From NCBI GenBank assembly GCA_949290385.1, contig CASERY010000083.1, positions 1 through 37,001 of the forward strand: 37,001 bases of DNA, written 5' to 3'. Shown in pieces: positions 3,705-35,193 of the stretch (position 1 is its first letter; the number at the start of each line of letters is the position of its first letter). The translations under genes and the position numbers were made by a program. This DNA comes from an uncultured bacterium (GTDB lineage: Bacteria > Verrucomicrobiota > Lentisphaeria > Victivallales > UBA1829). A model generated the notes under the pieces. The model was not told the origin of the DNA, did not search any database, and worked only from the letters and a program-made list of their open reading frames with translations.

Positions 3705-5924
3705 TTACTCTTCTATGGCAGTCAGTATGCAGAACAAACCGCTTCCATCCCGGTTCTACAGATCCTGCAGGACAAAACCAGCATTCATCAAGGTATCCCC
3801 GTAAAGCCTGTATTCCCTGTTTTTGTCCAGAACCTGAATTCTGTAGCGAAGTTTCGGATCCAATCCCTGAAGTCTCACACGGAGAGCCGGCATATGAACA
3901 TTCATGCGTCTGAGTACTGCTATAAGTGCAGCCTTTCTGCGGTCTTTTGAAACAAGCCCCCAGGCACACAGTCTCTCCTCTCCATTGAAAACATCACTAA
4001 GACGGTAGAAAGTTCCCTCTGTCACCAGATCATGATACTGATGATGTTGCTCCACCTGAGAACGGACAAAATCGCGTTCTTCCTCATTCAGTTTTGTCAA
4101 ATCCAGCTCGTAGCCTCCTGTTCCGCAGAATGCCACATAGCCCCGGGTCTCAAACGGAGTAGTCCTGCCAGTTATATGATTCGGACACACAGAGACATGC
4201 GCCCCCATGGAACTGCATGGGTAGAACAGGGAAGTTCCTCCCTGAATTGCAAGACGTTCAATGGCATCCGTGTCATCACTGCACCATATCTGGGGACAGT
4301 AATAAAGAATGCCCGCATCAAAACGCCCTCCCCCTCCGGAACAGCCTTCAATCAGCAGATTCGGGAATTCCCTGAGAAGCATTTCATGAAGCCGATAGAC
4401 CCCCAGCACATATCGGTGTGCAGTCTCCCCCTGCTGGTCTGCCGGAAGTGCAGGAGAATAGACTTCTGTCAGATTCCTGTTCATATCCCATTTCACATAT
4501 TCAATATTTGCAGAGTGCAGGATACTGGAGATCATGCGGAACACCTCTTCCACGACTTCCTCACGGGACATATCCAGCACCATCTGATTTCTGCCAAGGG
4601 TGCGGCGGCGGCCAGGAATCTGAATAGCCCAGTCCGGATGCGCCCGGAACAATTCACTTTCCTCTGAAACCATTTCAGGTTCAAACCACAATCCGAATTT
4701 CAATCCTGCCTGATTGATTTTCCGTACCAGATCCGGCAGATCCCCCAGTTTCTCACGGTTCACAAACCAGTCCCCGAGGCTGGTTCTGTCATTATTGCGC
4801 TTTCCAAACCAGCCGTCATCCAGGACAAGCATTTCGATGCCGAGTTCCTAGGCAGTTTCTGCAATGGAAAGAATCTTTTTATCGTCAAAATCAAAATAGG
4901 TGGCTTCCCAGTTGTTGATCAGAATCGGACGCTTTTTCAAAGCCCAGGTCTGCCGGATTAAATGATTCCGCAGAAAATCATGAAAGTTTCTGCTCATGCC
5001 GGAAAAACCTGTCCCGCTGCATGTCATGAAAACTTCCGGAGTCTGAAAGGAATCCCCGGCTTTCAGCTTCCACTCAAAAAAGTCTGGATGAATCCCCAGC
5101 AGCACGCGCGTATTTCCATACTGATCCACTTCCGCCATGCACTCATGGTTTCCGCTGTATGCCAGCATAAAACCATAAACAAGTCCCTGCTTTTCACCCG
5201 CATCCGGTTCCGCAAGCGCAAGCGCAGGACTGTTGCAATGGCCGGAGCTGCCCCGGACACTGCGAATTCCCTGCAGTCCCTTCCTCAATCTGCACCGTTC
5301 CGGAGAACGTTCCCGTGCCCAGGACCCGTTCAGTGTAATTAAGTCAAAGTTGTGTCCTTCCAAGTCCAGCTGCGCACTCATCGCCCGTTCCAGGTACAGA
5401 GTCTCCTGCGTGCGATTCAAAACCTTTACAGAACGCACAATCACATCGTGCTCCGGAAACACAGAATAAACCACAGTATAATAAAAATCCATTGCCGGAT
5501 CCTTCAAAGTAAGTTCCAGCGCTTCAATTTCTTCTTCATCATGTCCGGCAAAACTGGAAGGAAGCCCCGGCAGGACTTTCTTTCCCTGGACTATTTGATG
5601 GGAATGATAATAAACATCCGCTGCAACGGCTCCGCACGGAGTTTTCACCTGAACGGATCCTGATCTGAAATCTCCAGTATTGAATCCGGAAAATTCCTGC
5701 ATAATCCAGTCTGGAGAATAAGGCAGGTCTGAATCTGCCGGCATGGGAGAAATCGAGGCCGGCTGGAAGAGTGCCAGCTGAGAAAGAATTTCATCCGTAT
5801 CGGAGATGGACTTTCCATAATAAAGATGGTAAACCCGATGATTAGAAGCGGCTATAAAAATATAGTCTGTATTCCTGGTGGAAAGTTTGAACAGGCCTTT
5901 TTCCGGATAAAAATGAATCGCCAT
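3705..5924 (-). CDS. GH36 alpha-galactosidase, with two in-frame TAG codons
   Basis: Hydrolyses terminal alpha-1,6-galactose from raffinose-type sugars. It has no signal peptide, so it is cytoplasmic. Read with TAG as sense it has 739 aa, the usual GH36 length. TAG is codon 359 (4848-4850, context IAETA-TAG-ELGIE) and codon 723 (3756-3758, context LQDL-TAG-NRDGSG). The first falls just before the conserved LVLDDGWFGKR. The nucleophile is Asp480 in YVKWDMNR and the acid/base Asp550 in CSDDTDA, spaced 70 residues apart as in characterised bacterial GH36 enzymes. The part after the second TAG (SGLFCILTAIEE) matches the usual GDFQSRLF-like tail. The true stop is TAA at 3705-3707. Under the standard code the gene would split into 358- and 358-aa pieces, the first lacking all catalytic residues. 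No sugar transporter is adjacent. Confidence 0.95.
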
Positions 5925-12326: not shown

Positions 12327-12947
12327 TCAATTATTCTTCTGATAAAGCCCCAGACGGTCAATCAAGGCCAGTACGCCAGGATGCAGACTTTCTTTCAGGA
12401 ACTGTCTGTCTCCGGAGGCCACGGCTGCCCGTATCTAGGTTGAAGAAACCGGCGAATCCGGCAGGCCGTGCATTACACCGGACAGGAGTTTGTCTGTCTC
12501 CTGCTCTGTCCAATGAAGCAGAAGTTCCTCTCTGCTGATCTTCTCGGATGTGCGCGGATAGACAAGAAGGGAATAATTATCAGCCAGCTCCCGGGCACGG
12601 TACCACGTATGCAGCTGGCGCAGACTGTCAGACCCGATCAGAAGGAACAGTTCATCCTCCGGATAAATCTCTGAAAGTTCATTCAAAGTATCTATGGTAT
12701 AAGATTTACCCGGCCGGAAGCGTTCCAAATCCGAAACAATAAAGGAAGGATTGCCCTCTGTTGCTGTTTCCAGCATTTTCTTCCGCACCTCATACGGAGT
12801 AATCCGCTGTTTCGTCTTATGAGGCGGACAGGGAGCCGGAATAAACAGAACCCAATCAGCTCTTCCGCTGTCAAGAACGCTTTGGGCAATCTGCAGATGA
12901 ACTGCATGGACCGGATCAAATGTTCCACCGAAAAGCGCAATTTTCAT
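12327..12947 (-). CDS. nadD: Nicotinate-nucleotide adenylyltransferase, with one in-frame TAG
   Basis: Joins nicotinate mononucleotide and ATP to form deamido-NAD. It has 206 aa when TAG is read as sense. The N-terminus FGGTFDPVHAVHLQIAQ is the nucleotidyltransferase signature. PAPCPPHK and LLIGSDSLRQLHTW follow. TAG is codon 171 (12435-12437), inside the conserved SSTxIR motif that grips ATP: VSST-TAG-IRAAVASG. After it comes a normal NadD tail ending LIDRLGLYQKNN, then TGA. Stopping at TAG would remove the end of this motif and the last 36 residues. The start is ATG with AAGGAA upstream. Confidence 0.95.
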
Positions 12948-15531: not shown

Positions 15532-15603
15532 AAAAATAAAGGTAAATAAACCAGAGAATCGGGAAAAAACCGAGATTGCCTTTGTCGGAGACGCTGAACC
15601 CAT

Positions 15604-18600
15604 ATGAGCCTGACGATTTATTCACATTACAGTCTTGATTTTCTAGGAGATCTCTACTGCCGGAAAATCTATCGGGCAAACCACAGCTCTTTTCCCCGCA
15701 GGGAAACGGCAGCCGTCCAGTCCAAAGGCATGGAGGCATGGCTTAAACAGAAAATAGCTTCCTGTACGCCTATTGCAGCCAGTCTGTCTTTTCCCTTCAT
15801 CAACTCAGTGGTCAACGAAACGCTTTCTCTGGCATTTCCGGAACCTCCCCGACAACCTGATGAATCGGTATATACGCTTTTTCCATCTTCATCCGGCTTC
15901 AGGAAAGACCGAAATTTTCTTTCCCGGGAAACCCTCACCTGGAAGATTTTCGGTATTCTGCTCAAAAACGGACTGGAACAGTATCCGTCCTTTCACAGGT
16001 ACGCCTGTAATTCAGGGGGAAAACGTGAACTGAAAATCTTTCAGCTTTCGGAAAAACTTGCTTCCGTATTTGATCTTTATCAAATCTACTGCCCGGAACT
16101 TCTCCTTGCATGGACTGGACTGGATACCGGGAATTCCTCCAGTCCGGTAATGGATGCCGGCCTTCCATAGGATCTTCTTGAGCAGGAGAAAAAACTTTAT
16201 CAGACTGTAACAGCAGATCATCCAAATCGAGAGTACTTCATCTGGCGTTTTTTTCAAAACGACCTTCCGGATGCAGACACTTTCAGGAAAAAAATTCAGG
16301 CACGCTTCCCTCATCTAACATTTTTTGGATTTTCCTCGCTCCCGCGGATCTATTATCAGTTTCTCTGCAAACTTGCGGAATTCTGCGATATGGCCTTATT
16401 CCATGTCAATCCCGCCATTGCCTACTGGGGAGACCAGTACAGCCGGAAAAAACTTCTGAAGACCATGGAACACTGGAACCAATCCTCTGAAATGCCTCCG
16501 GATACAATGGATTTTCTTCATTATGGATCCCCGCTTCTTCAGTCATTCTGCCAGCAGGGAAGAGTGTTTCTTGAAGACATCCTCAGATCCTTCGATACAG
16601 ATGCTCCTGTGCTGGAATCTCCGGAAGCCCCTTTCTTCCTTGAGGATAAAGGCCCGGAGGAAAAAACAATTCTTCAGCGTCTTCAGGCAGATCTCCGTCT
16701 GGTACGACCAACTGCAGCCTTTCCAGTAGGTCCGGAGGAAGCCCGTAAGGATTGCTCTCTTGAGATTCACAGCTGTTTCAGTCCCATGCGGGAAATTGAG
16801 ATGCTTCATGACAGAATCCTTCATGCGCTTTCCAATCCGGAGATTCAGCCACGGGATATTCTTGTAACGGCACCGGATATCAACCGGTATGTTCCTTATA
16901 TTGACGCAGTATTCAGCGCTGATACGGTTCTCCGGGGACTCTACACCATCTAGGACAGAAATCTTACAGCGTCCAGTCCAGTGGTCAATACCCTGCTGAA
17001 AACCCTGGAGCTCTGCCGTGGACGCATGGATGTTCCATCCGTTTTTGAAATTCTTGAAAATGAGTTTGTCCAGAAGAAATTTGGGCTCTGGCAGCAGGAT
17101 CTGTCCAAACTCAAGCTCTGGATGGATCAGGCAATGATCCGCTGGGGCGTTGATGGAAAACATCACCAGCAGTTCACTGGAGTCTGTTTTGACGATTACT
17201 CCTGGAATTCCGGACTCCGCAGGCTGCTCCTGGGTTATGCCATGTTTGAACCGGACTCTCCAGATGGTTTTGAATCCGAAAAAATCATTCCCGCAGATTT
17301 TGCCGAGGATTCGGAAACCCTTCTTCTGGATCGATTCCTTTCTTTTATAAAAATTCTATTTCAAACCTGGCAAAGTTTGAAAGACAGCAAATCTCCTTCT
17401 GACTGGGAACAGTTTCTGCAGGATTTGCTGAACAAGCTCTTTTTTCAGACACGGGAAATTCATGAAGAACTAGTTCAGATCCGCGAAATTCTTTTCAATT
17501 TCCGTCTTCACGCGGAAGAAGAAGGCATTTCAAATCCACTGGACGCAGGAACGGTCCTGGATATGCTTTCTGAACAGTTTGAACTCACTGCATCGGAAAG
17601 TGCTTTTCTCCGGGAAAAAATCACTTTCTGCTCTCTGGTCCCCCTCCGGACAATTCCCAGAAAAGTCATTGCCGTAATGGGGCTCAATGAACAAGATTTT
17701 CCAAGACGGGATCACGAATTATTATTCAATCTTCTTTCCAGCGACCTGAAAAAGCGCTATTGTTCCAAATCCATGCAGGACCGCTATCTTTTCCTGGAAA
17801 CAATCCTTTCCGCTGAAAAGCAGCTGATTCTCTCCTATACAGGTCAGGATGTCAAATCCAGAGAAACCAAACCTCCTGCAGTGCCTCTTCAAGAACTTAT
17901 TTCATATGTTTCTGATCATTATTCCGTCCAGGTTATCCAGGAGAAACTCCAGGCTTTCAGTCCGGACTACTTCTCCGGCGAAAATCCTGCACTTTATTCC
18001 TATTCTGCTGAAAATTTCCATGCAGCCCAAATGCTGGAGCGCTCCCGCAGTCAAGCCTTTTCTTCAATGCCACCAGTATCCGGCAGGGAAACAGCACGTC
18101 TTTCCCAGGAAGTTCTTCAGATTTTGAAAAACGGAATCAAGGACCCGGAAAATATAGAAACACCCCAGGTCCTTTCGGCAAATCTTATTGAATCCATTCC
18201 GAATTCAAACGGAACTGTAGAACTTCAGGATTTCTGTCATTTTTTCCAGAATGCTTCTGCAATCTATCTGGAAACAGCCGCAGGCATTGTCTGCCCTTCC
18301 CTCAGTGCATCTGAGGAAGACGATACAGAACCCTTCGCTCCTGACCCGTTGGAATCCTACGACCTCTACCGGAAAATGACGGAATTCACTGCTGTTGGAT
18401 TCCCATTGGATATCCAGCAGAATTTCCTCGAAAAAACCTTAATTCATCTGCTGGGAGAAAACAGCTCTTCCGTTTTCTCAAAAATCTATGAAAACATCCA
18501 GTTCCTTTTCATGAATGCCCCTGAAGCCCGGCAGCTGTTTAAGAAAACAAGCAGGAAAAAAGCAGCATCTTTCTTCAGCACCACAGCCCATCGTTCCCTG

Positions 18601-19179
18601 CATGGCAATATCCCATTTCTGCTTGAAAAAGCCCCCTCCGGCTCCTCCACGGATAATACATTGACAGCTTATCTCCCCGTATATTCAGACTGGAAAGGCA
18701 AATATGCCTTCCGTCTTCTGGCACACATGAGTCTGGCTTCTGCCGGTCTGGGAATTCCATGCGCGGGAAAAGTCCTTCTCTTTAAAAAGCGAGAAATAAA
18801 GACATTTCACTCGATCTCGCCGGAGGATGCTTCCTTGTGGCTCAACCACATGCTTCTGATTTACAGTGCAGGTCATATTCTTCCTCTGCCAATATTTGAA
18901 AAAACCTCCTGGAACGCAGCCTGTCAGACAGCCTCAGGGAAACAGGACAACAACAAACTTTTAGAGATCTTTCTGGAAGAAGACTGCGCACCAGGGAAAA
19001 ACCGTGCAGATACACAGCCAATCCGTCTTCTCTATCCGGACCCGGATATCTTTAAATTGTACCCCGATCAGATGGAAGGTCTCCGTGTTCTTGCGGAACA
19101 TATTTATCTGCCGCTCCTCTCCAGAGCAGAGAAAAAGCCGCGGTCCAGAAGCTCTAAAACGGAAATACGGGAGTACTGA
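15604..19179 (+). CDS. recC: Exodeoxyribonuclease V gamma subunit RecC, with two in-frame TAG codons
   Basis: Structural and Chi-recognition subunit of RecBCD, which unwinds and trims double-strand DNA ends and loads RecA. Read with TAG as sense it has 1191 aa, close to E. coli RecC (1122). The N-terminus matches RecC: LTIYSHYSLDFLGDLYC, then VQSKGMEAWLKQKIA. TAG is codon 189 (16168-16170, DAGLP-TAG-DLLEQ), in the region where E. coli has WQAPLW, and codon 450 (16951-16953, LYTI-TAG-DRNL), where E. coli has YAISDR. LTFFGFSSLPRIYYQFL and FHVNPAIAYWGDQ after the first TAG, and GLNEQDFPRRD after the second, are RecC landmarks. It ends in TGA, directly abutting the recB ATG. With TAG as stop this would be three fragments. 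Confidence 0.94.
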
Positions 19180-22100
19180 ATGATGAATACATCCTGGACT
19201 TCCTTTGATTCCCTGCATTCAGAATTCTCCGGAACGACCCTGGTGGAAGCAGCAGCCGGCACCGGGAAAACTTATAACATCCAGAATCTGGCAGCCCGCG
19301 CTGTTATGGAAGGTTATGACTTTCCGTCTCTGCTGATTGTCACCTATACGGAAGCGGCAGCCGATGAACTCAAGAAACGCTGTTTTTCCATTTTAAAAGG
19401 GTGTTACCTCCTTCTGGACCGGCATCTTCCGGAAGATGCCCCGGTTTATGAGCAGTGCAAAGCCATTGTGGAAACCGAACACATTGAACGGAAAATTCCG
19501 ACTGAACTCCTGAAATATCGCCTTCACGGGGCACTTCTTACCTTGGACAGTGCTTCTATTTTTACCATCCACGGATTTTGCATGAGAGTTCTTTCAGACT
19601 GCGCCTTTGAGTCCGGGAATCTTTTCAGAACCCGTCTTGAAGCCAATTCCGCAGTCATTCTTTCCCGTCTGAGCGATGACTATTACCGGCATGTATTTTA
19701 CTCGGATGCCATCAGTGATACGGTCAAATCCATCCTCCGGACACTCTACGGCATCACAAACCTCACTCTGTATGAACGAATCCGGGGACCGGTTTCAGAA
19801 TCCTATACTCCTGTCCAGCCATTGCAGAACAAGACTGAAAAACAGGAACACCCGTATGGGGAAAACCTGTTTAGCCCGGAAGATACCCTTGCTCTTGAAA
19901 GTCTTATAGATGAAATCCATTCCTTTTCAAGAAATCAGACTTCTGAGGAGCTTCTCAACAAAATCCAGTTGTACGGCAAAGCCATACTCCGGGATGCAGT
20001 TCAGGATTTTCGGACAGCCATTCAGCAATGCGAAAAGCATTCCCGGTCCGGCCGCAGCCTGCTGCTGAACAGTTTTCTTGTCCTCGCAGAGAAAACCGCC
20101 GATCTTCGGAATTTTACCAAGGCCGCTTTGTCCAGTCATCCGGACCTTGAGCAGGAGTTTCTCCTGATACACCAGTACCGGCAGAAGATCCTTGAGGTTA
20201 CAGATCGTCTTTATTACCATTTTCTTTGCCGGGGAATTCATGAAGTCCGCAGTGCCTATGAAAAACTCAAGGAAGAAGAAAATTTTCTGACTTTTGACGA
20301 CCTTCTCCTGAAAGTGCGTGAAATTCTCCGGAGTTCCGGCTCCGAACGTCTTTTGACAGTCTTGAGACAGCGCTACCGCATGGCCATCATCGATGAATTT
20401 CAGGACACAGATCCATGCCAGTATGAAATCTTCCATAAGATTTTTGCCGAAGGCGGCCTGCCGGTCTTTTTAATCGGCGATCCGCGACAGGCTATCTACT
20501 CCTTCCGGGGAGCTGACATCGCCACTTATACGAAAGCCGCCCGCGATGTGGAAATGTGCAGACCACGTCAGACTCTGTCCGTCAACTATCGGAGCGCAGA
20601 TGTCATGATTCAGGCAGTCAACACGCTCTTCCGTCTCCCGCAATATGCCTGCACTCCGGATGGGGAAATCCATTCCTGGACGCCCTTCATGGATCCGTAG
20701 ATTCATTTTGAAGCAGTCAAAACCCCTTCAGACGAAGATCCTTCCCGGGCGAAACCCGGCCTCCTCCATGAAGGCAAGGAAGACTCCAGCCCCTTTCAGA
20801 TACTGTTTTCCCCCGACATGAATCAGGAACAAATTCTTCAGGCATGTGCCGCAGAAATACAAAAGATGCTGGCAACTCCTGACCTGTACCAGATTCCACA
20901 AGTCAATCCGGATCAGACTGTAAGCTGCAGGCCGGTTCAGCCGGGAGACATTGCCGTGCTTGCCTATCAGAAACGCAATGCTGCTTCAGTGCGAAAAATT
21001 CTTGCTTCCATGAACATCGCATCTGTCTTTGTCAAGGGCCGCAATATCTACGCCTCCAGTGATGCCTGGGAACTCTATCTGGTTTTAAAAGCAGTCCTGC
21101 AGCCAAATTCCAGAGAACTGGTTATGAATGCGCTTGCAACTCCTGTTTGCGGAGTCCCTATAGACCGGCTGGTCCAGGCAAACGAAGACCCGCAGTCCGG
21201 AGAGCTTTTCATCGCAGACATGATGGAAGTTTTTTTAACTTTGAATCAGCTGTGGAAAAAAAGCTTTCTCCAGATGTTTCAGGAACTCTTCCGGCATTTT
21301 CACGTACGGGAACGGTATCCGGCTCTCCCGGATGGTGAAAGAAAACTGACCAACCTTCTCCAGCTTCAGGATCTGCTCTATCAGGAAATTCTCACGGACA
21401 AATGTTCTCCGGAGACAGTCGTATCCAAACTTGCCAGACGCATTCAAAAACAGGATCAACTCCAGGGGCCACCCTTTTCACACTCTCGCCCGGCAGCAGA
21501 TGAAAACAGTGAACAAACCGAAGAACAGCTCGAAACGGACCGCAACGCTGTCCAGCTCATGACCATTCATTCCAGCAAAGGCCTTGAATTTCCCATTGTT
21601 CTGCTCCCGGATTTTTACTCAAAGACTATCCGGAAATTATTTTCAAACGCTGCCGCAGACAGGACTCCCTATAAAATTCACATGCCTGACGGTTCTGCCG
21701 CTTTTGATCTTCTCTGTCAAAAGGAAAATCTCATCCCTGCGGCTTCAGAAAGCCTTCAGGAAGACCTTCGCCTGGCTTATGTGGCTTTCACCCGGGCAAA
21801 GTATAAAACGCTGCTGTTCCGGGGGAAAAATGACACCCCCTCCTGTCTGGATTGGCTTTTCGTCATGAAGCATCTGGATCCCCTCCAGTTTCCATCTCTT
21901 GCAAATCCCGAATATGCGGCTCAATGCGTCCAGCTGCTTCTGAGCAAAGGCGGAACTTTTGAAGAAGCTTATCTGAATCATCCTTTCTGCCGGAAACTGG
22001 ATCCGGATTTTGTCCTGCAAAAACTTCCTTCTTGTGAAAAGGAACGGCCTCTCACACTGCCGGAACTGCATCTCTTCATCGACCGCAACTGGCAAATGGC

Positions 22101-23028
22101 AAGCTATACAACACTCACGCCGGCAAATTTCGGTACATCCAATGCCCCGGATTCTGAGACATTCAGTCTGGATTATGATGACGACGATGAAATCTTTGCT
22201 TCAGATGAAAATAGCAATCCGACCATCTCATCCGGATCGGACAGCATTTTCACAATTCCCGGAGGAGCCATTCTTGGAAATGCGTGGCATAAAATTCTCC
22301 AGGAACTGGACTACCAGGAAAATCCCGGAACCATTCAGGAAACCGTTGAACGGCAAATGCGTCTTTTCGGGCTTGTCAGGGATCAGGACTTAAAACTCCG
22401 GAACAACCGCTGTACTTTGACATCCGACATGCTACAAAAACTCTTTCTTCTTCCATTCCACGGTCAGAATACAGAATCTTTCAGACTCTGCGATATTCCT
22501 AAAAATCAAAGGATTCCGGAATTTGAATTCACTTTTTCCCTGAAACGCGGCTTTACCGGAAAGGACATTCAAAAAATCCTTGCCCCATGGATCCAGACTC
22601 GCTTTCATCTCTCGCCGGAATCCTGGCCGGACTGGAACCGGGAAATATCCGGTGGATTCCTCACCGGATTCATTGATCTGTTTTTCTGCTGGAACGGAAA
22701 ATTCTATCTTCTTGACTGGAAATCCAACCGTCTTGGCGGGAATGCAAAATCATTCAATGCCCAGTCCATCTGTCAGGAAATGATCCGCCACTTTTACTTC
22801 ATCCAGTATTTTCTTTATCTCACAGCAGCAGTCAAGTATCTGCGCTTTCTCAACAACGGGAAAATGTCCCGGGAGATTTATCAGGAAAAAATAGGCGGCA
22901 TTTTCTACGTATTTCTCCGTGGCGCAGTTCTGGAAGATCCGGAACGAGCTCTTTTTTTCGATCTGCCGCCCTACGAAACAGTGGAAGCCCTTGAACAGCT
23001 GTTCACACCGGAAGGACTTGACTCATGA
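19180..23028 (+). CDS. recB: Exodeoxyribonuclease V beta subunit RecB, with one in-frame TAG
   Basis: 3'-5' helicase and nuclease subunit of RecBCD. It has 1282 aa with TAG as sense. Walker A is AAAGTGKT (about 25-32); VTYTEAAADELKKR follows; Walker B is IIDEFQDTD near 405; then LIGDPRQAIYSFRGAD. TAG is codon 507 (20698-20700, FMDP-TAG-IHFEAVK), aligning with E. coli FKEIPFIPVK. Beyond it come the 2B/2A helicase motifs MTIHSSKGLEF (near 793) and AYVAFTRAK, then the nuclease domain with GNAWHKILQEL and GFIDLFF...LLDWKSN (about 1161-1182), the catalytic Asp/Lys set. Helicase and nuclease are therefore intact only if TAG is translated. It ends in TGA in an ATGA overlap with recD. Confidence 0.96.
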
Positions 23029-25118
23029 CCCCTGACGATATCCGAAAAATGACAGGAATCCATGCCTTCGGCACACTGGATCTGGCCTTTGCTGATTTTA
23101 TCCTGGAATATGTGCACAGCCAATCCGTTGAGCTGTTTCTGGCCAGTGCTCTGGTCTCCCAGGCGTTAAAACGAGGACACACCTGCTGCCGCCTGGATCT
23201 GCTGGCAGGTTCTCTGTACCCAGAAAAAGATGAAAATGATCCGGAGAATCTTCCGCAAATCCGTCTTCCGGATCTTCAGACATGGCGAAAACATCTTCTG
23301 GCTCATTCCGATGCAGTGTCTTTTCTGACAGAAAAGGATCAACACGACTTGTCTTGCTGGATGCAGCAGAGACTTTCCCTCCCGGCAGACGCCTTGGAAA
23401 CATGTTCCAGCCTTCCGGACACAGAAAGCCGTACAGGCGGCAATAGAGTCTTGTACAAACGCCTTTTAAAACCGCTGATTCTGGATAGTTCAAACCGGAT
23501 TTATATGCAGCGCTATTTTCTACATGAAAAAAGTCTTGCTGTCCAGATTCTCCAACGTTGTAAAAACTGCCGCAGCCAGTTGCAGCTGCTCCTTCCATCG
23601 GCCGGACTGCAGTCTCTCCACACGTATTTTCAACGGGCAGCCTCTGATACTGATATCGAACCGGACTGGCAGCAGTTTGCCCTCTTTCTTGCCGCATCTC
23701 AGAATTTCACCGTAATCACCGGCGGTCCGGGCACAGGAAAGACAACTGTTGCCGCAGCTCTTCTTGCGCTGGAACTGCAAAGGAATCCAGATTTGAAAAT
23801 CATGCTTGCCGCACCTACCGGAAAAGCTCAGATGCGCCTGAAAGAAGCCATTTTTTCCGAAACTGTACCGGGAAAACTTCAGATTTCCGAAACAATCCGG
23901 GAAAAACTCCGTACACTTCCCGGAGCCACCATTCACAGTCTTCTTGGATACCGCTTTGGAAGTCCTTCCTTCCAGCACAACGCTTTGGAAAAACTGGATT
24001 TGGACCTCCTTATTGTCGATGAATGCTCTATGGTCTCTCTCACTCTTATGGATAAACTACTTCAGGCTCTGCCTGCCCAAACCAGAATTGTTCTTCTGGG
24101 AGACAAAGACCAGCTGGCTTCTGTTGATGCAGGTTCTGTCATCGGAGATCTTTGTGCCGGAGGGCTTCTGAGTACAGCGGATTCAGAAATTTCTGCAGAA
24201 AAATTTTTCCAGCAGACCGGCTGGCATGTCCCCCACGCGACTCCGGAAGAATTGAAAGAATATCCTCTTGCCGGCCATATTGCAGAACTTCGACAAACTC
24301 ATCGGTTCAATCGCGAAATAGGCGGTATTGCTGTCAGGATCAAGAATTTCAGTGGATCCGAACAAGAAGCCATGGAAACTGCCGATCAGATTCTTTCCAG
24401 TTCATGTGGATCATTTTCTGCTCGGACTGTCTCCCGGCAAAAATTCAAAAATGAACTCCAAAAACTCGTCTTAAATCCGAATCCCGATCTTTTCTCTCCG
24501 CTCTCAGAGGATAATGATATGCTCAGCGGATACGCCCCTATGGCAGAACTCTGCCGCCTTGCAAAACTGGGAGGCCGTGAAAATCTTCAGCAGGCCTTCC
24601 TGTGTCTTGATGCATTTAAAATTCTCTGTGCAACAGTGAAAGGACCTTTCGGTGTTGAAGCTGTCAACCTTCTCATGCGGGAACTTCTGGGTATGAAGGC
24701 GCGTTATGCGCCGGGACTGCCGGTCATGGTCAGAGTTAATGACGCGAAACGGACTGGACTTGTCAACGGAGATACCGGCATTGTCTGGAAAAGTCTGGAT
24801 GGCCCTTCCGGCACTCTGAAAATTTATTTTCCGAATCATCCACTCCGAGGGTTCACGCCGGCAGAGCTTCCTCCTCATGAAGACGTTTTTGCCATGACAG
24901 TCCACAAATCGCAGGGTTCCGGATTTCAGAAAATTCTATTTCTTCTTCCGGAACAGGATTCTCCCGTACTGAGCCGTGAACTCCTTTACACCGGAATCAC
25001 CCGGGCAAAAAAGCGTGTAGACTTATGGACCACAAAAGCCATCCTCTCAGCAGCCCTTTTCCGACAGACAACCCGTTATTCCGGACTGACAGAACGTCTG
25101 CGCGATTCACAAATTTGA
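23025..25118 (+). CDS. recD: Exodeoxyribonuclease V alpha subunit RecD
   Basis: 5'-3' helicase subunit of RecBCD, a superfamily 1B motor. It has 697 aa, somewhat longer than E. coli RecD (608), and contains no TAG. Walker A is GGPGTGKT (233-240). Further motifs are LAAPTGKAQMRLKEA, LLIVDECSMVSL (Walker B), LLGDKDQLASVDAGSV, and near the C-terminus MTVHKSQGSGF and YTGITRAKKRV. The N-terminal domain, which contacts RecC, is present. The start overlaps the recB stop (ATGA), so the three subunits are probably made in step. It ends in TGA. Confidence 0.96.
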   Translation: MTPDDIRKMTGIHAFGTLDLAFADFILEYVHSQSVELFLASALVSQALKRGHTCCRLDLLAGSLYPEKDENDPENLPQIRLPDLQTWRKHLLAHSDAVSFLTEKDQHDLSCWMQQRLSLPADALETCSSLPDTESRTGGNRVLYKRLLKPLILDSSNRIYMQRYFLHEKSLAVQILQRCKNCRSQLQLLLPSAGLQSLHTYFQRAASDTDIEPDWQQFALFLAASQNFTVITGGPGTGKTTVAAALLALELQRNPDLKIMLAAPTGKAQMRLKEAIFSETVPGKLQISETIREKLRTLPGATIHSLLGYRFGSPSFQHNALEKLDLDLLIVDECSMVSLTLMDKLLQALPAQTRIVLLGDKDQLASVDAGSVIGDLCAGGLLSTADSEISAEKFFQQTGWHVPHATPEELKEYPLAGHIAELRQTHRFNREIGGIAVRIKNFSGSEQEAMETADQILSSSCGSFSARTVSRQKFKNELQKLVLNPNPDLFSPLSEDNDMLSGYAPMAELCRLAKLGGRENLQQAFLCLDAFKILCATVKGPFGVEAVNLLMRELLGMKARYAPGLPVMVRVNDAKRTGLVNGDTGIVWKSLDGPSGTLKIYFPNHPLRGFTPAELPPHEDVFAMTVHKSQGSGFQKILFLLPEQDSPVLSRELLYTGITRAKKRVDLWTTKAILSAALFRQTTRYSGLTERLRDSQI

Positions 25119-33698: not shown

Positions 33699-33959
33699 AT
33701 GAAAAGCGCATTTGAATTAGCCTTGGAACGCAGCGGCGGTTCTCTCAATGAACTGTCTCCTGACAAAAAAGAAAAAATTGCTGAGCTGGATTCCATCTGC
33801 AAGGCAAAAATCGCAGAGGCGGAAATTTCTGCGGATCAGAAAATACAAAAATTGGATGATCCAGCAAAAATCGAAGAAATCAAGGAAGGCCTTCGCCATG
33901 AAATCGCCTCCCTGCAGGACCGTTACGAACGGGAAAAGGATCGTGTCCGCAATGCCTGA
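33699..33959 (+). CDS. Small charged helical protein upstream of cysteine desulfurase
   Basis: An 86-aa protein, family not recognised. It is rich in Lys, Glu, Asp and Ala throughout and predicted helical or coiled coil (AKIEEIKEGLRHEIASLQDRYEREKD). It has no cysteines apart from one (C32), no signal peptide and no membrane segment. The start has a CGGAG site 9 bases upstream. Its TGA overlaps the ATG of the desulfurase gene, so the two are likely translated together. A partner or chaperone role in cluster assembly is a guess from position only. Confidence 0.8.
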   Translation: MKSAFELALERSGGSLNELSPDKKEKIAELDSICKAKIAEAEISADQKIQKLDDPAKIEEIKEGLRHEIASLQDRYEREKDRVRNA

Positions 33960-35193
33960 CAGACCTGAGGCAGACAGCAATACCGCAGAGCAGAAAAATC
34001 CACTGACATCCTCTCTCTGCGGCGACCGGGACAGAGTTATTATTCAGAATGGCATTTACCTGGATCATGCGGCGGCCATGCCGCCTGATCCGGCGGTGCT
34101 TGCCCGGATTGCAGAATTATTTCAAACAGTCTATGCCAATCAGGAGTCTCCTGGCTTTCACGGAAGCCAGGCGCTGCATATACAGAAAAAAGCGGAACAG
34201 CTTTTAAAATGTGCTCTTTCGGAAAACTGTAATTCGGAATGCATGGTTCTCTGGTGCAGTTCCGGAACAGAAGCCGTTCAGGCCTCCATGAAACTTATTC
34301 AAAAGGTCTATCCTTCCGGAGGAGTGATTTTATTCAGTGAAGGAGAGCATGCGTCTGTACGGGCGGCTCTAAAAGAAATGCCGGGTTCTTACCAGTGTCT
34401 TCCGCTGAAACTTGCATCCGAAGGCACGTTGGATCTGGATGATCTTGAACAAAAACTCAAAAAGTTCAATGTGATTGCCTGCGCCGTACATTTTGTTCAG
34501 TCTGAAACTGGAAAAATTCAAGATTTAACCGCAGTCCGCAACCTTCTGAAAAAACATTCATCCAAAACCCTGTTCTTCACGGATGCCATTCAGGGTATTG
34601 GAAAAATTCCCCTGCCCTGGGATCAGGCAAAACCGGATATTCTGACGATTTCCGGTCAAAAATTTGGACTTCCTTCCGGAGCGGCACTTGTCTGTTCCAA
34701 CACATTGCGCAAAGATCTTGTTTCACTCAGAAATACGTTTCATCTGGTTGGCCGTCTTCCAGTGCCTTTTGCCATGGCTCTTGCGGAACGCCTGGAATAC
34801 CTGCAGCGGAATCTGAATGAAAATAGAAAGAAGGCATCTGAAATAAAGAATTTTCTTCTCCAGGAACTGCAGGAGAACTTATTCGGATATTTTCAGGAGA
34901 CCATCCCGTCTTCTGATGCCAGCGACTATATTTGTCATCTGCTGCTCAAGTCTTCTTCTGTAACTTATCAGGGAGCCATTGTTGTCCGTGCGCTTTCTGC
35001 CAGAGGCATTTCCGTATCCTCCGGCAGTGCCTGTGATGCTGAAACCAAAACGCCTTCTGCAGTTCTCAGGGCAATGGGGATTCCCATCAAGGATGCTTAT
35101 TCAGCCTTGCGCATATCCCTGGGATTCCATACAACAAAGTAGGAAATTCGCCAGTTTGTATGGGAACTGAAGAAAACTCTGAGTGAATATTGA
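33952..35193 (+). CDS. Cysteine desulfurase (NifS/IscS type), with one in-frame TAG
   Basis: PLP enzyme that takes sulfur from cysteine for iron-sulfur clusters and thio-modification. It has 413 aa with TAG as sense. About 33 extra residues precede the usual start (IYLDHAAAMP). PLP contacts are SEGEHAS (His133), FFTDAIQGIGK (Asp211, Gln214) and the Schiff-base Lys237 in ISGQKFG. The active Cys361 is in SSGSACD. TAG is codon 397 (35140-35142), inside the family motif where homologs read TTxEEI: HTTK-TAG-EIRQFVW. The helix then continues to SEY and TGA at 35191. Stopping at TAG would cut the last 17 residues of the family fold. A NifU-like gene follows 64 bases later. Confidence 0.94.

Follow-up and report, generated by a model that had tools for sequence, protein, structure and literature searches.

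An in-frame TAG in a GH36 alpha-galactosidase gene points to UAG as a sense codon, most likely for alanine, in an uncultured bacterium

What does TAG mean in a gene whose reading frame continues past that codon with its catalytic residues in place? The question is raised by a GH36 alpha-galactosidase gene in the window, by which we mean the whole stretch of 37,001 nucleotides that was analyzed. Three features of the gene are needed here.

3705..5924, minus strand: GH36 alpha-galactosidase gene, from the ATG at 5924 through two TAGs to the TAA at 3705, with GH36N, Melibiase, and GH36C in one frame.
4848..4850, minus strand: in-frame TAG, codon 359 of the GH36 gene; the column holds A 11, S 5, and K 2 in 18 relatives' loci.
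3756..3758, minus strand: second in-frame TAG, codon 723 of the GH36 gene, 17 codons before the TAA; the column is variable (P 3, T 3, and others).

The TAG at codon 359 is real in the frame that begins at the ATG, and it lies in the context ETA-TAG-ELGIE immediately upstream of LVLDDGWFG, as the first-pass annotation had described. Asp480 and Asp550, which we take to be the nucleophile and the acid/base, respectively, are both present 3' of the TAG, in KWDMNR (from residue 478) and SDDTDA (from residue 549). When the TAG is read through, Pfam assigns a GH36 N-terminal domain (residues 30 to 288), a Melibiase domain (292 to 637), and a GH36 C-terminal domain (653 to 720), and the Melibiase match (E value, 5.7e-153) spans the TAG without interruption. 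With these three domains and both Asp residues, the protein belongs to the GH36 family. A search of 61 genomes returned the gene itself, with one internal TAG, as the best match, and the next 18 matches, all from other genomes, were without an internal stop. The alignment with GH36 homologs that had been proposed as a check was carried out, and a stop never occurs in the codon 359 column. The second TAG, at 3756 to 3758, is probably also a sense codon. A raffinose-synthase family search of the same genome gave weak matches only, which have no bearing on the TAG question.

The earlier claim that this gene has been kept under selection past the TAG stands. The picture it suggests, in which a single codon of a single gene is recoded or suppressed, is too narrow, because TAG proves to be a sense codon throughout the genome. 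Nothing about the TAG is particular to GH36 or to its active site. Besides GH36, four genes of the window contain a TAG internally or near the end, and when frames are stopped only at TAA or TGA and TAG is read, split genes rejoin.

15604..19179, plus strand: recC-like gene with two internal TAGs (16168-16170 and 16951-16953) and a TGA end.
19180..23028, plus strand: recB-like helicase gene with one internal TAG (20698-20700) and a TGA end; UvrD-helicase domains flank the TAG in one frame.
12327..12947, minus strand: nadD gene with one internal TAG (12435-12437) and a TGA end.
33748..35193, plus strand: class-V aminotransferase gene with a TAG (35140-35142) 17 codons before the TGA.

Reading TAG turns the three pieces of the recC-like gene into one frame of 1193 codons, in which Exonuc_V_gamma gives a single match of 155.1 bits, compared with pieces of 90.3 and 30.1 bits otherwise. 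The read-through NadD protein scores 148.7 bits against TIGR00482, and its CTP_transf_like match lengthens and rises from 74.5 to 79.6 bits. The Aminotran_5 profile is complete (371 of 371 positions) only when TAG is read, which gains its last six positions. The recC, recB, and recD homologs adjoin one another in an operon-like run (window positions 15598 to 25118). A scan of genome contigs with RecB found 11 distant relatives at 27 to 39% identity, mainly from Deltaproteobacteria with one from Lysobacter, and none of the 11 was from the same genus.

The source assembly (G000) is a draft of 2.68 Mb in 168 contigs, with a completeness of 78.48% and a reported contamination of 2.03%. About 0.69 Mb of it, taken in stretches, was set against 1.89 Mb of relatives' sequence. 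Where frames overlapped, the best-scoring one alone was counted and the lesser-scoring ones were dropped, and at least 20 aligned columns were required on either side of a stop. By this rule, 78 internal TAGs were found in 57 frames on 33 of 58 loci (78,366 codons of conserved genes), compared with 4 internal TAAs (74,292 codons) and 8 internal TGAs (75,998 codons) in the same sample, an excess far above what chance would give, and all 78 TAG contexts were distinct. The identical procedure applied to a control relative (G002, for which 36 of 60 loci were used) gave no TAG in 66,800 codons, with 2 TAAs and 10 TGAs. The genes that need TAG to be read include mraY, secY, hisS, nadD, uvrC, truA, and prfB. 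In an earlier and smaller comparison, the density was about 1.2 TAGs per 1,000 conserved codons, with TAGs on most contigs that had enough codons. Among the larger loci, contig G000:C12 (L164) has the highest density, with 11 TAGs in 3,355 conserved codons and Q and E at several of the sites; TAG may be used differently there. A hexamer coding test scored the sequence as continuing to be coding past 13 of 26 TAGs, 3 of 65 TGAs, and 1 of 65 TAAs; because the test was noisy on a relative (G045, 31 of 221 ends), we set it aside and rely on the homology counts.

At 126 gene ends whose position is expected from relatives, TGA comes first among the stop-type codons in 63, TAA in 59, and TAG in 4, and in each of these 4 a TAA or TGA follows 8 to 15 codons further on, so that none of the 126 ends requires TAG. 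The power of this test is modest, because the matching genes of relatives end in TAG in only 8 of 126 cases.

A profile search of the source assembly, a 78% complete draft, gave no RF1-grade match, only RF2 and a small partial match. In the relatives, an RF1-grade match is present in 46 of 49 (33 of 35 and 13 of 14 in two sets), counting as positive G001, whose 415.8 bits fall just below the cutoff of 423.25. The three relatives without such a match, G016, G034, and G046, are 72%, 69%, and 78% complete, and since they are similarly incomplete, the absence of RF1 from the source draft is supportive rather than proof. The RF2 gene, prfB, itself carries an in-frame TAG at residue 39 of the translated stretch, and its read-through protein passes the prfB cutoff with 523.6 bits. 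Separately, the uvrC matches of three relatives (G017:C26:22617-24101, G039:C297:5632-7068, and G042:C132:21410-22870) each have one TAG within the matched frame. These three genomes have an RF1-grade match despite that TAG, which may be a true stop inside the match.

We regard it as nearly certain that UAG is a sense codon in the source genome, because internal TAGs are abundant, no gene end needs TAG, RF1 was not found, and the gene for RF2 itself contains a TAG. Which amino acid it encodes was approached through the residues that homologs carry at the TAG positions. At the GpsA position, 22 of 29 sequences have alanine and 7 have leucine. The UvrC column reads S 12, A 10, T 3, V 3, and R 1 (n = 29). 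As read from alignments, five solved structures hold A, C, A, T, and E at the GpsA column; at the MraY column, another comparison with five structures shows Cys in four and a gap in the fifth, and two relatives have Ala. For Nnr, a PDB search left the residue at the TAG column unclear. The MraY of the source genome (G000:C37:6058-7299, L109) matches known MraY in two stretches, 6 to 132 and from 228 on, with an extra segment between them that is not seen in solved structures.

A mixture model, in which some sites are allowed to be unconstrained, was applied to 47 sites in 37 genes, after sites of low local identity had been dropped. It places alanine first, above serine by 9.6, glutamine by 10.9, and the background by 12.4 natural-log units, and alanine comes out on top in 276 of 300 bootstraps over genes. 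Alanine remains first, by 6.5, after GH36 and GpsA are removed, and it beats the background at every local-identity filter. Without the mixture, the background composition beats alanine at the loose local-identity filters of 0.3 and 0.4, and alanine wins at 0.5 and 0.6. As a control, nine sense codons were each sampled at a similar number of sites, and for every one of them all 100 draws gave the correct assignment. Alanine is the best-homolog residue at 14 of 46 TAG sites (30%), an enrichment over the 0.046 that applies to non-alanine sites (P = 1e-8). Raw alignment counts had favored Glu or Gln at TAG and shifted toward alanine once only the best-scoring frame per place was kept; in our interpretation, the raw signal arose largely from antisense frames in which CTA (Leu) reads as TAG. 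On these comparisons of aligned residues, we consider it likely that UAG stands for alanine.

The most serious alternative accepts that UAG is sense genome-wide and holds that it means serine or glutamine, or that near-cognate tRNAs decode it ambiguously after the loss of RF1. Serine is the commonest residue in the UvrC column and the second in GH36; the alanine match is only 30% at TAG, compared with about 60% for the usual alanine codons GCA and GCG; TAG sites show a mild enrichment of each of Glu, His, Gln, and Ser; and some well-aligned sites hold H, R, N, Q, F, or E. Ambiguous or other decoding would also agree with the fact that a CUA tRNA was not found in the source assembly. Against these points, serine is absent from all 29 sequences of the GpsA column, the model ranks serine and glutamine well below alanine and keeps alanine first when GH36 and GpsA are left out, and several TAGs fall in membrane segments (MraY and RND pumps), which are poor places for Gln or Glu. 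We judge this alternative unlikely. We attribute the lower match to alanine to a young change, in which TAGs would have come to occupy chiefly positions that tolerate substitution.

The tRNA that would read UAG was sought in several ways. No CUA tRNA is among the 46 tRNA matches in the source assembly at the default cutoff; when E values up to 10 were admitted there were 47, and the additional match (13.7 bits) falls in the tmRNA reported by ARAGORN. ARAGORN lists 36 amino acid/anticodon kinds in the assembly, and CUA is absent from them. Also missing are Ile GAT, Ala TGC, three Ser kinds, and Arg CCG, about six kinds that we presume the genome to have, and because these are missing too, the lack of a CUA tRNA is in line with the completeness of the assembly. 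Only one of the four expected serine kinds (TGA) was found, which is odd beside a code change and is probably due to missing contigs. A CUA tRNA pattern had no match in 137 genomes of the order and is common in phage contigs, with at least 120 stretches; among the 80 phage loci listed, 71 CUA tRNAs were parsed, and none has the alanine determinant G3:U70. One tRNA-like stretch of the source assembly (G000:C164:78-121), which contains TTCTAAAA, was rejected as a candidate, since it folds no better than its shuffles (z = 0.87) and ARAGORN is silent on it.

The remaining explanations fare worse than serine, glutamine, or ambiguous decoding. Errors of base calling or assembly, or contigs of a recoded phage or another organism binned into the draft, could be suspected in an assembly of 168 fragments, and phages in which TAG encodes glutamine are known (PMC9523058). 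Errors or foreign contigs are nevertheless very improbable here, because the 33 TAG-bearing loci carry chromosomal housekeeping genes, TAG is the only stop-type codon affected, and the reported contamination is low; the spread of TAGs over most contigs with enough conserved codons also argues against a single contaminating phage or organism. A lone TAG in one gene would, by itself, look like a nonsense pseudogene or local, regulated read-through, which for the GH36 gene is extremely improbable given its intact catalytic part; as a general explanation it is refuted by the 57 conserved frames, essential genes among them, that contain TAG, in contrast to a near absence of internal TAA and TGA. 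Pyrrolysine is a known UAG-inserted amino acid in some bacteria and archaea, and it is equally improbable here, as the best match to PylS in the source assembly scores 20.2 bits against a cutoff of 178.15 and the TAG columns hold small residues rather than lysine-like ones.

Our reading, which we consider probable, is that UAG is sense in the source genome, with alanine as its most likely meaning, and that only UAA and UGA act as stops. RF1, which stops at UAG and UAA, would have been lost, RF2 would serve UAA and UGA, and a predicted tRNA-Ala with anticodon CUA would insert alanine at UAG. In the GH36 protein, this would place alanine at residue 359, where it is also the most frequent residue among relatives. 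Alanyl-tRNA synthetase identifies its tRNA by the G3:U70 pair of the acceptor stem, regardless of the anticodon, which would make alanine an easy target of such a change, and the CUA tRNA-Ala would be charged normally. In the one tRNA-Ala with a GGC anticodon that was looked at, G3 stands opposite U70 by reading. We predict that the gene for the CUA tRNA sits in the fifth of the genome that the draft lacks. The assay that had been proposed for the alpha-galactosidase, expression with any arbitrary UAG-suppressing tRNA, would not address the central point, namely, which amino acid the cell's own tRNA inserts.

It is likely that this is a natural bacterial code with UAG as alanine and UAA and UGA as the sole stops, which arose within a single genus whose family otherwise keeps to the standard code; the change is known from one genome of that genus. 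The low use of TAG, its placement at weakly conserved sites, and the standard code of the sister genera suggest that the change is young, and if so, its steps could be reconstructed. Variant codes show which changes evolution can make. If true, the case would combine two things that did not appear in the literature searched: UAG reassigned in the genome of a cellular bacterium, and a stop codon turned to alanine outside organelles. Standard gene calling truncates such proteins, so that the genes of such genomes are misread.

The same codon with the same meaning is established in the mitochondria of the green algal family Hydrodictyaceae, where a CUA tRNA of the alanine type is present and the mitochondrial release factor is changed (PMC6821328). 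The two cases are alike in the codon, the inferred amino acid, and the inference from residues at conserved positions. They differ in that ours concerns a bacterial genome of at least 2.68 Mb rather than an organelle, RF1 was not found in it rather than being altered, and the tRNA was not found. The bacterial code changes known before PMC8629427 all reassign UGA, according to that paper, which itself adds changes of arginine codons, and PMC13092985 adds another family in which UGA encodes Trp. Those changes (UGA to Trp, UGA to Gly, and the arginine codons) are, like ours, genome-wide, and affect other codons; in the UGA recoders RF2 is lost (PMC8629427, PMC13092985), a parallel to RF1 here, which was not found. 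Phage code 15 likewise has TAG as a sense codon, read by a CUA tRNA, but it belongs to phage genomes with standard-code hosts and specifies glutamine (PMC9523058). In Escherichia coli engineered to lack RF1, RF2 alone terminates translation and UAG is free for another meaning (PMC4434889). That strain was made in the laboratory, whereas the change in the source genome is natural, and a natural change of UAG tied to the loss of RF1 would show that bacteria can achieve on their own what recoding in the laboratory brought about in E. coli. In the openly licensed literature, searched mostly through titles and abstracts, we recognized no bacterial UAG reassignment other than those of the pyrrolysine type and the engineered ones. 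This kind of event, a stop codon becoming sense with the loss of its release factor, is known, and the codon and amino acid involved are, as far as searched, new for a bacterial genome.
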